From the NCBI GenBank assembly GCA_004764695.1, contig SMSO01000031.1, positions 4,201,048-4,265,047 of the forward strand: a DNA stretch of 64,000 bases, written 5' to 3'. The number at the start of each line of letters is the position of its first letter. The stretch's first letter is position 1. Source of the DNA: Schizochytrium sp. TIO01. Its lineage: Eukaryota > Sar > Bigyra > Thraustochytrida > Thraustochytriidae. The notes beneath the pieces were generated by a model that worked only from the letters and a program-made list of their open reading frames with translations, was not told where the DNA came from and ran no database searches. This document shows positions 4,201 through 55,713 of this stretch, piece after piece. Both the position numbers and the translations under genes were made by a program.

Positions 4201-4953
4201 ATGCATAATTCGAACTCTACTAAAGTTGAAAGTGAATTGTGTGTCTGCGATGACGATTGTGACTGTGAACCATGTCGCTTTGCGTGGGTAGCACTAGTGG
4301 TTTCGTATCTGGCTGAGGTGTCAAACGAGTGTGCAAGTAGCGACAGTCAGACCAAATTCATTTCATTACCAAAATTATCTCCCGTATCTGCCCCATCCCC
4401 AAACTTTCTTTCCACCCAGGCCAGTTCACGTTGCCTCCTGCTCCTGCTCCTGTTTCTCCTGCTTTGCGCTCTTCTGACCTCAACGATGACAGGTGTATTG
4501 ATTGGCAAGCGCTTTCGCACCAGACGCCACAGCCATAGCCCTCTGGCGGGGTCTCTTCAGCGGAATTCAGCACGCCCAACTTCCTTCCTTCTGCGGAGTC
4601 GGGCAATCCCAACGAGCTTCTTCTCGTCTTCTCGATGGCCCATGATTACTTCTCCTTCGCCCCGATCACCTCATCCTTTAGGACCGTCTTCAGATCGTAC
4701 AATAGGCTACTCGAGGCGCGATGTAGGTCGGCCTCAAAGGAGGACGAAGAGATCGGGGAATCCATCTAGGAGCACCCAACTGCATCATGCCACTTTTCTA
4801 GTGCTACTAGCAAAAACTCGCATAAATCAGCGTCAGATCTGTCTAAAATTTTCAGATGAGCAGCAGAGTTCGCTGAGCCAGAGGAAGACAGAGCGAAAAG
4901 AAAGGATTCTGAGGAGCTTCGTAAGAGCCCCGGTCTACAGTACATTTACATGA
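4201..4953 (+). CDS. Possible membrane protein, 250 aa, unrecognised
   Basis: ATG-initiated open frame of 250 codons, long enough that chance is unlikely at this base composition. The N-terminus has a Cys/Asp-rich stretch (CVCDDDCDCEPC). A leucine-rich hydrophobic segment at about residues 82-102 could be one membrane span. The remainder is Ser/Arg/Pro-rich and of low complexity. It lies just upstream of the SEC14-like gene on the same strand, so it may instead be that gene's 5' untranslated or promoter region. No family recognised. Confidence 0.3.
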   Translation: MHNSNSTKVESELCVCDDDCDCEPCRFAWVALVVSYLAEVSNECASSDSQTKFISLPKLSPVSAPSPNFLSTQASSRCLLLLLLFLLLCALLTSTMTGVLIGKRFRTRRHSHSPLAGSLQRNSARPTSFLLRSRAIPTSFFSSSRWPMITSPSPRSPHPLGPSSDRTIGYSRRDVGRPQRRTKRSGNPSRSTQLHHATFLVLLAKTRINQRQICLKFSDEQQSSLSQRKTERKERILRSFVRAPVYSTFT

Positions 4954-28891: not shown

Positions 28892-31537
28892 ATGAGCAGC
28901 GGGAGGCCTGGAGCGCCAAGCTTTGCCTATAGCGAGAACAGGAAAGTGTCAGATGGGAATTTCTTAGATCTCTTGCAAAATGTGTCGTATATTGGCGTCG
29001 ATGATGGCAACGTGACCATGGGAATTACATTGTCAGAAGGCATCTTGGACAATCTCGATAGTGGCGATTCCGGACGAATATTAACTGTGGTCGCAGAGTC
29101 AAGCACAGTGCCACCGGGTGGTACTGTTCGCGGGCCACTTAATCTTATCCCATTTATAGATCTAGACTCACCATTTGTAGCAAATGTAGACTCAATTACA
29201 GCAGGAGCAAACCTCACAAACTTACACCTGAAAGGCTCATGCGCATACACGCGCACAGACCTGCTCACGACACCGATTATTGTGTATACGAATTCCTTCG
29301 AATATAACACATCCTTGGATACCATTTATATCCTAGAAAACCGTTCACTGTATTACGATAGCCCTGCAGCAGATTACTTTGGGCTGGTGAACAACAGCAC
29401 TGGCATTCCAGAGAATTGGAATTCCACCTTTGGTTCTGCTCCGGTCTTTTCAGAAGTGGGTTGGTTTGTATATAATTGCAGGGTCGATTCATGGTACACT
29501 CCAAAGTGGTACGGCTCTGTGTTTCACGAGTTCCCGCGTTTTCATCAGGATAACTTCTTCGTGTATCCTGCCTCTTCTAGTCACAAAGATTACATGATTA
29601 GTTTGTGTATCACAGCCGTGCCGCTTGTCTGTATAGGTGGACTTGTTGTTCTTTTTGAGCCGTTTGTACTTTTATTGAACAGCATTGGTAGGCTGCGATT
29701 CCTAATTCGTAGCAGATTCGTAAAGAAGAAACGTCAGCGTGAACACAAGAAACGCCGCTCGAAACAGGCGCAGCGTAGTGCTTATGCTGATGTTGCAAAT
29801 CGAAATGGCCGCGCAAGGATGTCCCATCGATTTGGCGGGGAAAGATTGGCAATCGAGTTATCTCGATCAATTGGTAGAAGCAATTCAAAAGGTCTTCACA
29901 CAAATGTGTCGTCCAACTATGAAGATGAAGACACAGACTCGGACTCAAGTGCGTTTGACCGTCCGCCTCGTACGAGCAGTAGTACTGTATGTCGATGCTG
30001 TTCATGCTGTTGTTGTAAGAAAGAAACCACAGTTGACTCGCTGCAAGGGATTGCACAGTCACCGACCTCTCCTATGAGTGATGGAATGCAGTCGCGAGCG
30101 AGCGGAGTGTTGTCTCAAAATGGCTCCTCAGGACGAACATCAATGCACCTTCTCGGCCTTACAGCAAAAGAGAAGCGTAGAGAAGCGCTGCGACTTCGCA
30201 TGGAGATCCTAGAGCTCAATGAAAAGTTGAGCAAAACTCTGCTGCCAAGCAGTTTTCTACGCCGTGCCTTCCTTATTCTGTTACTTATTCTCGCTCTAGT
30301 GGAAGTGCCGGTAGGCATTACCCTTGCTCTCGCCTTCCATGACCTAACTGATGACTTCTATACAGAAGCTAAGCTTGCACAGGAATATTTGACGAGTGCC
30401 CATGAGCTGGCGACAAATCGGCAATCTCGTGTCCAAGAATTTAGTTCTGCTTGTGGCTCTCTACTTTCCGACGCAGCACAGGAATTGATTAGCACAGAAC
30501 AAATTGAGCTCGCTGAGTATATTAACTTGGTAAGACCTTCGAATCTTGTACCGGCAGACGCTAACCTTCTAGGGGGGCTTCGCTACCTACTCCTCATTGT
30601 TTGGCAAGGTCTGAACTCCCTCCTTTGCCTCATGGTGGTGGCGTCTATTTGGTCTGGGGTTTTGACTTACTGTCGATTCACGTGGGGTGACGAGAAAATC
30701 GTCTGCCAAAGGCCTTCATTCTTTCTTGGCCGATGCCTCCAACCATTTATCATAATTATCACTTCTTTGTGCTGGATTGCCATTGGACTTTTCACGATCA
30801 TCGTTTCTGTAATGTCTGATGCTTGCGCACAACCGAGTTTTGTTCAGGTTAATACAAGCCTAGCAAATTACCAAAGCTCTGCAGATGCCCAGTACAATGC
30901 GCAAATATATAATTTCCGTACGACATTCAGTCAGGTCTTGCGCGGTGACAACCGCACTCATATTGGTGCTGTGAGTTTTAACGTGGGGTCATTTCTCTCA
31001 AATTGTTATACTGCTGCTCTGATTTTTAATCCTTACACATATATATTGCAGCTCGCAAATGAAGCACATTTGGAAGTTGTTGAAAGCCTGGCTGGTCAGT
31101 CTATTTCCTGCGACTCGTCCAATTATACAGCCTCAGGTTTTTATAGCCCCGTAGAGCAGCATACCCGATGTGAGCAAATAGCTGATGGGTTTGGGGCAGC
31201 GATTACCAATTTGTGTCAAGAGCATGGTCTATGGCAACTCTTCACATTTTATGTGTCTCTGATTCTCTTTACACTTCTTTCCCTTATTGTGTACAGTAAC
31301 TCGCGAGAGTTAACACCAAATCTTTTCCGTATGCACAACGGAAAATCACTCCAGGCTCGAATTCAGCAAATGCAGAGCAATCTGCGGGACTTACTGCAGG
31401 ATCAAGGTATAACTACCGATGCGTTCGTGCCTTCTCCAAACAGCCCTTACGACTCAACACGTTTGGACGATAATGGTAGAAATGCTCCTCTCTTCGACCA
31501 TCGTCCGACGCGGAGTCGGGATTATGAAGTGGCTTAG
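28892..31537 (+). CDS. Large multi-pass membrane protein, 881 aa, unrecognised
   Basis: ATG at 28892 (MSSGRPGAPSF). Residues 1-232 form a large hydrophilic domain with many N-glycosylation sequons (for example NVS, NLT, NST) and a few Cys, so probably lumenal or extracellular. A hydrophobic span lies at ~234-263, then a basic stretch (RFVKKKRQREHKKRRSK) and a Cys cluster CRCCSCCCC (367-375), a likely palmitoylation site. Further spans are at ~456-482, ~565-590, ~610-640 and near 815-840, with extracellular-type loops between them. The C-terminal tail holds a helical segment (ARIQQMQSNLRDLLQ). No signal peptide is seen at the chosen start. No family recognised; a receptor- or channel-like surface protein is only a guess. 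Confidence 0.85.
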   Translation: MSSGRPGAPSFAYSENRKVSDGNFLDLLQNVSYIGVDDGNVTMGITLSEGILDNLDSGDSGRILTVVAESSTVPPGGTVRGPLNLIPFIDLDSPFVANVDSITAGANLTNLHLKGSCAYTRTDLLTTPIIVYTNSFEYNTSLDTIYILENRSLYYDSPAADYFGLVNNSTGIPENWNSTFGSAPVFSEVGWFVYNCRVDSWYTPKWYGSVFHEFPRFHQDNFFVYPASSSHKDYMISLCITAVPLVCIGGLVVLFEPFVLLLNSIGRLRFLIRSRFVKKKRQREHKKRRSKQAQRSAYADVANRNGRARMSHRFGGERLAIELSRSIGRSNSKGLHTNVSSNYEDEDTDSDSSAFDRPPRTSSSTVCRCCSCCCCKKETTVDSLQGIAQSPTSPMSDGMQSRASGVLSQNGSSGRTSMHLLGLTAKEKRREALRLRMEILELNEKLSKTLLPSSFLRRAFLILLLILALVEVPVGITLALAFHDLTDDFYTEAKLAQEYLTSAHELATNRQSRVQEFSSACGSLLSDAAQELISTEQIELAEYINLVRPSNLVPADANLLGGLRYLLLIVWQGLNSLLCLMVVASIWSGVLTYCRFTWGDEKIVCQRPSFFLGRCLQPFIIIITSLCWIAIGLFTIIVSVMSDACAQPSFVQVNTSLANYQSSADAQYNAQIYNFRTTFSQVLRGDNRTHIGAVSFNVGSFLSNCYTAALIFNPYTYILQLANEAHLEVVESLAGQSISCDSSNYTASGFYSPVEQHTRCEQIADGFGAAITNLCQEHGLWQLFTFYVSLILFTLLSLIVYSNSRELTPNLFRMHNGKSLQARIQQMQSNLRDLLQDQGITTDAFVPSPNSPYDSTRLDDNGRNAPLFDHRPTRSRDYEVA

Positions 31538-49911: not shown

Positions 49912-51713
49912 ATGGTGATCTGCTGCTCGAAAAACACTTTCGTGGCCTCTGCTGCCATTTGGCTGCTGTTCTCCATTGCATGCCTGGCCTTCTCTCTGTG
50001 GGCTTGGTTTGGCGGCGACGGTCTGTACCGTGTACCCAGCAATAATGCCTACATCGGCATTGTGTGTGTCTTCGGTCTCTTCGTGCTGATTTCATTCTCT
50101 GGAGTCCTCTCGCGCATCATCCATGGTGAAGGTCTCTTGGTTTTCTACATCATCATGTCTTTTCTCATTTCCCTGGCAACCATCCTCGGAGGCTGCTTCG
50201 TGCTCCTGTACATGAACGACATCAGCACGTTTGAGAACCTCGATTCAACTGCGTCTAGTGCAGCGTCTAGTGCCGAGGCTGAGTTCTTCAAGTGGGCCAC
50301 AAGCAACCCTGAATCGTGGTTCAACCTCCAGAATACATACTCTTGCTGTGGCTACGACTTTGCCGAGCTTTACGAGAACTCGACCGACCTTGACACCGGC
50401 AACTCGTGTAACGCAACCCTGGATATTGAGCTCTCCGAGGCATGCGCGTCTTACACTGAAGACTGTGAGGATACTGCTCTTGAGACCTACAATGTTGCGG
50501 AGGACTACTTTTGTGTTGATGCAATCCGAATCTTCTTTCAGGAGCGCACTCCGTACTTTGCTGTAGGTGTGGCACTTCTAGCTTTGCTCATGATCATCTC
50601 TTGGGTTGCTGCTCTTCGCATGTACTGGGTACCTTACGAGGAAGGTGGCTTCTGGGACGGCAGTGACGATGAAGGGTTGCCTACTTCAAAGACTGGTGAC
50701 GATTCTGATTTACCCACGCCCACTGCCAACCCCGTCGGACCTCTTGGTACCGCCCGTAAATCTCCTTTTGATGATGACTATGAGCACGGAGATGGTGGCT
50801 TTGGTCGCGCCCCTCCTCCTACAAGTGGATTTGGTCAAACTGTTCGCAATTTTGGTAACCGTGTTTCTGCCAGAATGCCTGCTGCGTTTGGAGGTGCTGC
50901 TCCTGGAGGTGCAGGAAATGCCCAAGTTGGTGCATTCACTGGTGGTGCTGCTTCTGGACCTCTTGGTGGAGGCGCCCCGCCTCCTGGACCCCCTCCTGGC
51001 ATGGGTGGATTCCGCGGTGCCATCAATCGTGTATCGATGCGAATGGGCTTTGGCAGACCTCCTGCAGGCCCCCTCCTGGCTTTGGAGGCGGCGCATCACC
51101 AGCCTCAACGGCTCCTGCATCTCCTCTCGGCGGCTCCGGGCCTTCTTCAGGCTTTGGTGGAAGCTCTGCGGCTCCCTCTAGACCTTTTGGCGGTGGCATG
51201 GAGCTTCCGCAGCCCAACAGTGGCCTCGGAGGCGGCGCTGCTCCACCACCTCCTCCCAGTGGAGGTGGATTTGGTGCCAAGATGAAGGGCTTCGGAAACC
51301 GCGTGTCTGTGAAAATTGGGGCTGCATTTGGAGGCGGAAGACCTCCTATGGGACCTCCTCCCGGAGCTGGCTTTGGCGGTGGGTCTTCAGCACCTACTGG
51401 CGGATTCGGGGGTGGAGCGCCGAGACCCTCTGGCGGATTCGGAGGTGGTGCTCCCAGACCTTCTGGCGGATTCGGAGGTGGTGCACCAAGACCTTCAGGC
51501 GGATTCGGAGGTGGTGCTCCCAGACCTGCAGCACCAGCGCCTGCTCCCTCGAGAGGCGCAGGAGGCGGTGGTGGTGCACCAAGTCCAGCACCACGTGCCG
51601 CACGGCCACCTATGGGTGGTGGTGGCGGCCGTGGAGGCCTGTTGGCTCAGATCCAGCAGGGCAAAAGACTCAACCATGCTCAGACCGACGACCGTTCTGG
51701 CCCGCAGGTCTAA
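49912..51713 (+). CDS. Tetraspanin with proline/glycine-rich tail and C-terminal WH2 actin-binding motif (one frame break)
   Basis: About 600 aa. Residues 1-240 are a tetraspanin-like core. Spans lie at ~10-32, 46-68, 76-100 and 216-238. The large loop carries YSCCGYDF (CCG at 145-147) and further paired Cys, the tetraspanin hallmark. The cytosolic tail (~241-600) is Pro/Gly-rich, with three copies of a basic NRVS(A/M/V)(R/K) motif (NRVSARMPAAFGG, NRVSMRMGFG, NRVSVKIGAAFGG). It also has PPPPP and APPPGPPPG stretches, and about four GGFGGGAPRPS repeats. The last ~26 residues (51633-51710) read GGLLAQIQQGKRLNHAQ, a WH2 motif as in WIP/verprolin and WASP-family proteins, which bind monomeric actin. 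The first frame diverges at a 5-C run (51069-51073); the tail continues one frame over, so a missing C is likely. Kozak context AAAATGG. Confidence 0.85.
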
Positions 51714-55014: not shown

Positions 55015-55713
55015 CTAAAGGTTGTATTTTTGGTACAATGCAGCGTATTTATCACGGATGGCATGCTCATCGTCGTCCTCACCTTCTTCTCCGCCGTAGA
55101 TGTTGTTCCCCGTGTTGAGCGAGTTGTCCAAGTTGGAGTCGCGATCACCATCGCCATAGACGCCCTCAAGAGCGCCATACTCCATGTCGCGCCTCGATGA
55201 GCCACCCAGCGGCTTGCTCGGTTCGTAATCAAAATCTCTCCGAGAGCGAATACCGTAGACACGAATCGTTACGAGCAAGTTCAAGCCTAATACCACACCA
55301 AGTATTAAGAAAAATAACGCTACAATGCGAACTTGCTTTTCCACGTGCGGGATCTCCTGCACTTGGGGGTTTGCAGATTCTGCGATACGTCTTTTGAAGA
55401 GGATGAATATCAGGCTGGTGAGCACGCTCAAGGCCATCAATGCCCGTAGCACGAAGATATATACAGAGAGCACAGCGCGAGAGCTATCTGCGTTAACTAA
55501 AATCGAGGCGCACGAGAGTACCAACAACGTGAATCCAGTCATCATGGGCATGATTTCTAGCACCGTCAGAGTCCTCTCTTCATACCCAAAGAACACGGCC
55601 AGTGACAGGAGCGCTATGCTTGACACGAATAGCACCACATTCAACAAACGGTACATGCACAGCGCCACGTCGTCCACCACCTGGTCGCGAAATGTCTGAG
55701 AAAACCACGCCAT
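55015..55713 (-). CDS. Four-transmembrane (tetraspan) protein, 232 aa
   Basis: ATG at 55713 (MAWFSQTFRDQV). Four hydrophobic spans at ~22-43, 52-73, 80-106 and 128-151 with short loops, then a 75-residue acidic cytosolic tail with Asp/Glu runs and a terminal YAALYQKYNL containing a YxxL-type sorting motif. No CCG motif and no large loop, so not a classical tetraspanin. Function unknown; endosomal or plasma-membrane location is a guess from the tail. Confidence 0.8.
   Translation of the reverse strand: MAWFSQTFRDQVVDDVALCMYRLLNVVLFVSSIALLSLAVFFGYEERTLTVLEIMPMMTGFTLLVLSCASILVNADSSRAVLSVYIFVLRALMALSVLTSLIFILFKRRIAESANPQVQEIPHVEKQVRIVALFFLILGVVLGLNLLVTIRVYGIRSRRDFDYEPSKPLGGSSRRDMEYGALEGVYGDGDRDSNLDNSLNTGNNIYGGEEGEDDDEHAIRDKYAALYQKYNL

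Follow-up and report, generated by a model that had tools for sequence, protein, structure and literature searches.

The gene at 49912–51713 on the forward strand of the DNA analysed here (the window, a stretch of 64,000 nucleotides from Schizochytrium sp. TIO01 with a G+C content of 45%) probably encodes a tetraspanin with a WH2 motif at its end. The 1,802 bases are read as an intronless gene for a protein of about 600 residues, in which a tetraspanin domain is followed by a disordered Gly/Pro-rich tail and a terminal WH2 of the WIP/verprolin type, and from which one C is missing in the assembly. The sequence itself demonstrates both domains, the order in which they stand, and a tail that continues in a switched frame. 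The frame itself is broken as assembled: the tetraspanin is read in frame 1 and the WH2 in frame +2, so the fusion needs a switch between them. Against a one-gene fusion stands the literal reading of the assembled DNA, in which frame 1 runs from the ATG at 49912 for 457 codons, closes with the stop codon at 51285, and yields a 457-residue protein without WH2. Both families are ordinary, and the novelty is their combination, a new architecture of known domains.

The first part of the gene (49912..51066, 385 codons in an open frame 1) contains the tetraspanin domain and the first half of the Gly/Pro-rich tail, and its codon-usage score is positive in frame 1 until about 51070. Hallmarks of tetraspanins had been recognised at the N-terminus in the first-pass annotation, and the profile search bears this out, with residues 7–234 (49930..50613, forward strand) matching Pfam Tetraspanin PF00335 at 52.9 bits against a cut-off of 32.1. 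Four hydrophobic spans, at about residues 11–29, 48–66, 74–92, and 217–235, are visible both as hydropathy peaks and as AlphaFold helices; between them lie a short inner loop and two outer loops, one small and one large. The large extracellular loop carries the CCG motif (C145, C146, and G147; 50344..50352 in translation), which together with C166, C178, C185, and C201 gives six cysteines, and it also has two N-glycosylation sequons. The Cys pair of the CCG motif and a third Cys are invariant among eight aligned tetraspanins, this one and seven others from the same genome. The AlphaFold model of the tetraspanin has a mean pLDDT of 61, with low confidence in the large loop. Its best matches to solved folds are human Tspan15 (Z 12.6 over 164 residues, rmsd 5.9), CD53 (Z 11.8), CD81 (Z 11.6 over 144 residues, rmsd 4.6), and CD9 (Z 9.8); the values for Tspan15 and CD81 fall within the range of helical bundles. 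The Foldseek ranking also favours tetraspanins, but its E value of 0.017 is not significant; the fold search lends weak support, since the model of the large loop is poor. When the tetraspanin domain was compared by sequence with PDB chains, the sole hits were designed TPR proteins, which were discarded as chance matches.

The profile search of the 64 Mb genome returned ten tetraspanin matches, including the gene at 49912–51713. No comparable tail or WH2 was found in the other tetraspanin frames of the genome, and there is therefore no paralogue support for the fusion. No relative turned up in the collections viral_contigs and genome_contigs, a result that carries no information because both are free of eukaryotic genomes. 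Other membrane proteins were noticed as well. One open frame of 1,114 codons (L010, G000 C35:1551278-1551604, minus strand), whose tetraspanin-like match is weak at 24.4 bits, has many membrane spans and a big Ser/Thr/Pro-rich stretch. Within the window, another four-span protein is encoded 3.3 kb downstream at 55018–55713 on the minus strand; it lacks the CCG loop, and its tetraspanin match of 19.4 bits is below the cut-off of 32.1. At 28892–31537 on the plus strand, an 881-codon open reading frame contains several membrane spans; it matches no Pfam family.

The second part of the gene (51072..51713, forward strand, frame +2) comprises the remaining tail, the WH2, and the stop codon; it is defined by its open reading frame, by codon usage, and by a Pfam match at its end. 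The 28 codons that precede the stop codon at 51713 match WH2 (PF02205) with 34.9 bits against a cut-off of 23.1 and an E value of 1.1e-8. The motif, GGLLAQIQQGKRLNHAQTDDRSGP and its neighbours, is located at 51618..51701, and the matched residues, RGGLLAQIQQGKRLNHAQTDDRSGPQV, the last of the protein, span positions 1–28 of the 28 in the Pfam model. Among the 12 WH2-like places in the 64 Mb genome, this one has the best score. The amphipathic helix LLxxIxxG is present as LLAQIQQG and aligns with chains of WIP and N-WASP. The alignment with the crystallised WIP chain 2a41_C runs through LL..I..GK.L...T.DRS.P and so reaches the trailing DRSxP, which is indicative of the WIP/verprolin type; chains of the WASP family, N-WASP among them, were aligned as well. 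The first-pass annotation had taken the C-terminal LLAQIQQGKRL for a WIP/verprolin-like WH2 and had suggested a profile search of the last 30 residues; a score above the cut-off, and not the lack of one, was the outcome, and with the alignment to 2a41_C it agrees with that assignment. The actin-contact core LKK(T/V) reads LNHA here, with Leu kept. In WASP (2a3z) it reads LNKT, and only H and A of LNHA are without precedent in the aligned chains. Because LNHA stands in place of LKK(T/V), the affinity for actin is uncertain, and the KLKK of WIP, a proposed actin contact (PMC3397550), is absent; both points count against the reading proposed here. Judged by its sequence, binding of G-actin by this WH2 is likely, not assured.

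Two other WH2-bearing frames of the same genome deserve mention. A 459-codon frame (L018, G000 C31:1128728) starts with the WIP-like WH2 FLADIQKGKKLKQVNQADINDRSQ, and its remainder is RhoGAP-like by eye, which makes it another unusual WH2 combination. A 985-codon frame on the minus strand (L013, G000 C33:1413755-1416841) contains many WH2-like repeats, DLLASIRN, DLLSAISN, and NLLDSIRAA among them, only some of which are above threshold.

The tail that connects the two domains extends for about 350 residues past the fourth span and consists of 28% Gly and 16.5% Pro. The description of it as Pro/Gly-rich with three copies of a basic NRVSxR/K motif, made in the first-pass annotation, proved accurate. 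The copies lie at residues 316, 372, and 463 and belong to three longer repeats: repeat 1, GFGQTVRNFGNRVSARMPAAFGG (50827..50895, frame 1); repeat 2, GGFRGAINRVSMRMGFGRPPA (51004..51066, frame 1), which stops at the frame break; and repeat 3, GFGAKMKGFGNRVSVKIGAAFGG (51267..51335, frame +2). Aligned with each other, repeats 1 and 3 reach z 13 against shuffles. The motif of repeat 3 was found nowhere else in the 64 Mb genome and is confined to this locus. The three basic repeats are followed by four tandem GGFGGGAPRP(S/A) units with a 33-base period (51392..51527, found with Tandem Repeats Finder and in translation). It had also been suggested that polyproline in this tail recruits profilin-actin. 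This part of the proposal is weak, as the longest proline run in the tail is five residues, although a profilin gene is present in the genome.

The frame change falls on five consecutive C at 51069..51073, the same run that the first-pass annotation had cited, though not in its reasoning, and this placement follows from codon usage, homology across the break, and the lack of a plausible intron. According to a codon-usage score whose training set was other genes from the same genome, frame 1 ranks first up to the scoring segment that starts at 50992 and frame +2 from the segment at 51082; the single exception past 51082 is a segment inside the tandem repeats in which frame 1 is slightly ahead. 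An alignment of the tail upstream of the break with its downstream part, read in frame +2, scores 190, and shuffles average 99 (z 9); the shared Gly/Pro composition accounts for part of the raw score, but the shuffles preserve this composition. Comparison with the other two post-break frames gives z values of -0.4 and 0.7, that is, no homology. The end of repeat 2, where RPPA is followed by GPPPGFGGG, resembles RPPMGPPPGAGFGGG in repeat 3, and if one base is added to the five C, RPPAGPPPGFGGG is recovered as the counterpart of RPPMGPPPGAGFGGG. The frame switch is best explained by one absent base.

These data bear on the possibility that two adjacent or overlapping genes are present, a tetraspanin gene and, from about the ATG at 51198, a gene for a small WH2 protein rich in Gly and Pro. 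An ATG-initiated open reading frame of 171 residues that contains the WH2 does exist at 51198–51713. However, frame +2 is coding-like already upstream of this ATG, an intergenic spacer is absent, the tail sequences on the two sides of the break are homologous, and both sides carry the repeat motif found only at this locus. The last two observations oppose the refutation by two separate genes that had been foreseen for the fusion, and we regard this arrangement as extremely unlikely. One gene is favoured because codon usage switches at the break, homology is seen only in the corrected frame, and the locus-unique motif occurs on both sides. From this sequence evidence, a single gene very probably carries both the tetraspanin and the verprolin-type WH2. 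The fusion put forward in the first-pass annotation is upheld to this extent, with both domains confirmed and very probably in one gene, but not as a single open frame across the 1,802 bases.

It might also be proposed that the cell joins the two frames itself, through splicing or a programmed -1 frameshift, and produces two forms, with and without WH2. Regulated output of this kind would make for a neat switch, and inspection shows that a P-site CCC inside CCCCC could pair perfectly again once it had slipped by -1. However, the site differs from the canonical X XXY YYZ heptamer. As for splicing, no right-phase GT-AG pair across the break has a donor that is better than poor, and candidate introns would remove tail sequence; an intron bridging the break was rejected for its poor donors. 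The corrected frame gives RPPAGPPPGFGGG, parallel to repeat 3, with nothing lost, which speaks against both mechanisms and leaves them very unlikely.

The remaining explanation is that the break is real, the result of a recent one-base deletion or a polymorphic allele, and that the protein made, 457 residues long, is a tetraspanin that has lost its WH2 and whose end is aberrant and rich in Leu. This is what the assembly says when read literally, and a DNA search of the 64 Mb genome found the gene once, with no second copy or allele. However, the downstream frame retains its codon usage for 640 bases to the stop, with the WH2 intact, so that any loss would have to be very recent. The omega-3 PUFA synthase of the same assembly served as an internal control. 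In thraustochytrids, the omega-3 PUFA synthase gene is a single open reading frame. In this assembly it is divided into two frames, with an apparent extra G in AAGAAGGGCTCGCGAG, at a G run at about 4360–4390 of the locus (L024, G000 C4, near 611,030); a second synthase frame lies nearby in the opposite orientation. This homopolymer break in a gene generally known as one open reading frame suggests that residual homopolymer indels are present in the assembly, and it stands against a real break in the tetraspanin gene, which we consider unlikely. A sequence error is the likeliest cause of the break at the five C, with a polymorphism less probable, and the reading of one gene with one C missing is retained below.

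The proposed protein resembles tetraspanins such as CD9, CD81, CD53, and Tspan15 in its four spans, short inner loop, and large loop bearing the CCG and a total of six cysteines, and also in its N-terminal cysteines, which are possibly palmitoylated. The C-terminal tail of tetraspanins is usually short, whereas the tail described here is about 350 residues long and has a predicted actin-binding motif. A WH2 followed by DRSxP and a long disordered chain rich in Gly and Pro are features shared with WIP and verprolin. In WIP, however, the WH2 is N-terminal and comes with the KLKK contact and profilin-binding motifs (PMC3397550), whereas the protein considered here has it at the C-terminus, with KRLNHA in its sequence, and a tetraspanin at the N-terminus anchors the chain in the membrane. 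The layout of WIP/verprolin, with an N-terminal WH2 and a C-terminal WASP-binding segment, is thus not that of the gene at 49912–51713, and no WASP-binding segment was recognised by eye. The WASP family is similar in having a WH2 with LLxxIxxGxxL and poly-proline stretches, but differs in its WH1 domain, GTPase-binding part, and Arp2/3-binding acidic end, none of which is found here; the WH1-containing WASP-like proteins of this genome are separate.

How such a protein might act can be outlined from its parts; most likely, a tetraspanin at the cell surface would tether G-actin through its tail. The tail would be cytosolic, as in other tetraspanins, and as the ends of tetraspanins are cytosolic, the WH2 would face the cytosol. 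The flexible Gly/Pro-rich linker of about 340 residues would let the WH2 reach G-actin near the membrane, and the NRVSxR/K repeats may touch acidic lipids or be regulated by phosphorylation. By delivering or holding G-actin at the membrane, the WH2 could turn clusters of tetraspanins into sites of actin assembly or anchoring, with the actin-containing ectoplasmic net as a possible location. A lone WH2 does not achieve nucleation of filaments. For this reason, the protein would most likely deliver or buffer monomers locally, or cooperate with WASP-like WH1 proteins and profilin. The genome contains a profilin gene and two WH1-domain WASP-like proteins, so this partner machinery is present. In animals, tetraspanins are connected to actin through ERM proteins and the partners EWI-2 and EWI-F (PMC4861716). 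We propose, tentatively and with clear reservations, that the tetraspanin described here may bind actin monomers itself, without ERM or EWI adaptors, and may serve this protist lineage to couple tetraspanin membrane domains to actin assembly, for example, at the ectoplasmic net or bothrosome of Labyrinthulomycetes.

No tetraspanin with a WH2 was found in the literature searched, and the same search gave nothing relevant on tetraspanins in thraustochytrids (the coverage was incomplete, with most subscription journals outside it). Tetraspanins organise surface domains in many eukaryotes. If the proposal is true, the protein would be a one-protein version of the link between tetraspanins and actin and a simple reagent with which to test their coupling. 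The ectoplasmic net of thraustochytrids is an actin-containing membrane structure unique to the group, and its components are mostly unknown (PMC12221091); the main text of that paper does not mention tetraspanins. The predicted tetraspanin-WH2 protein would give the net of a thraustochytrid a concrete candidate component.
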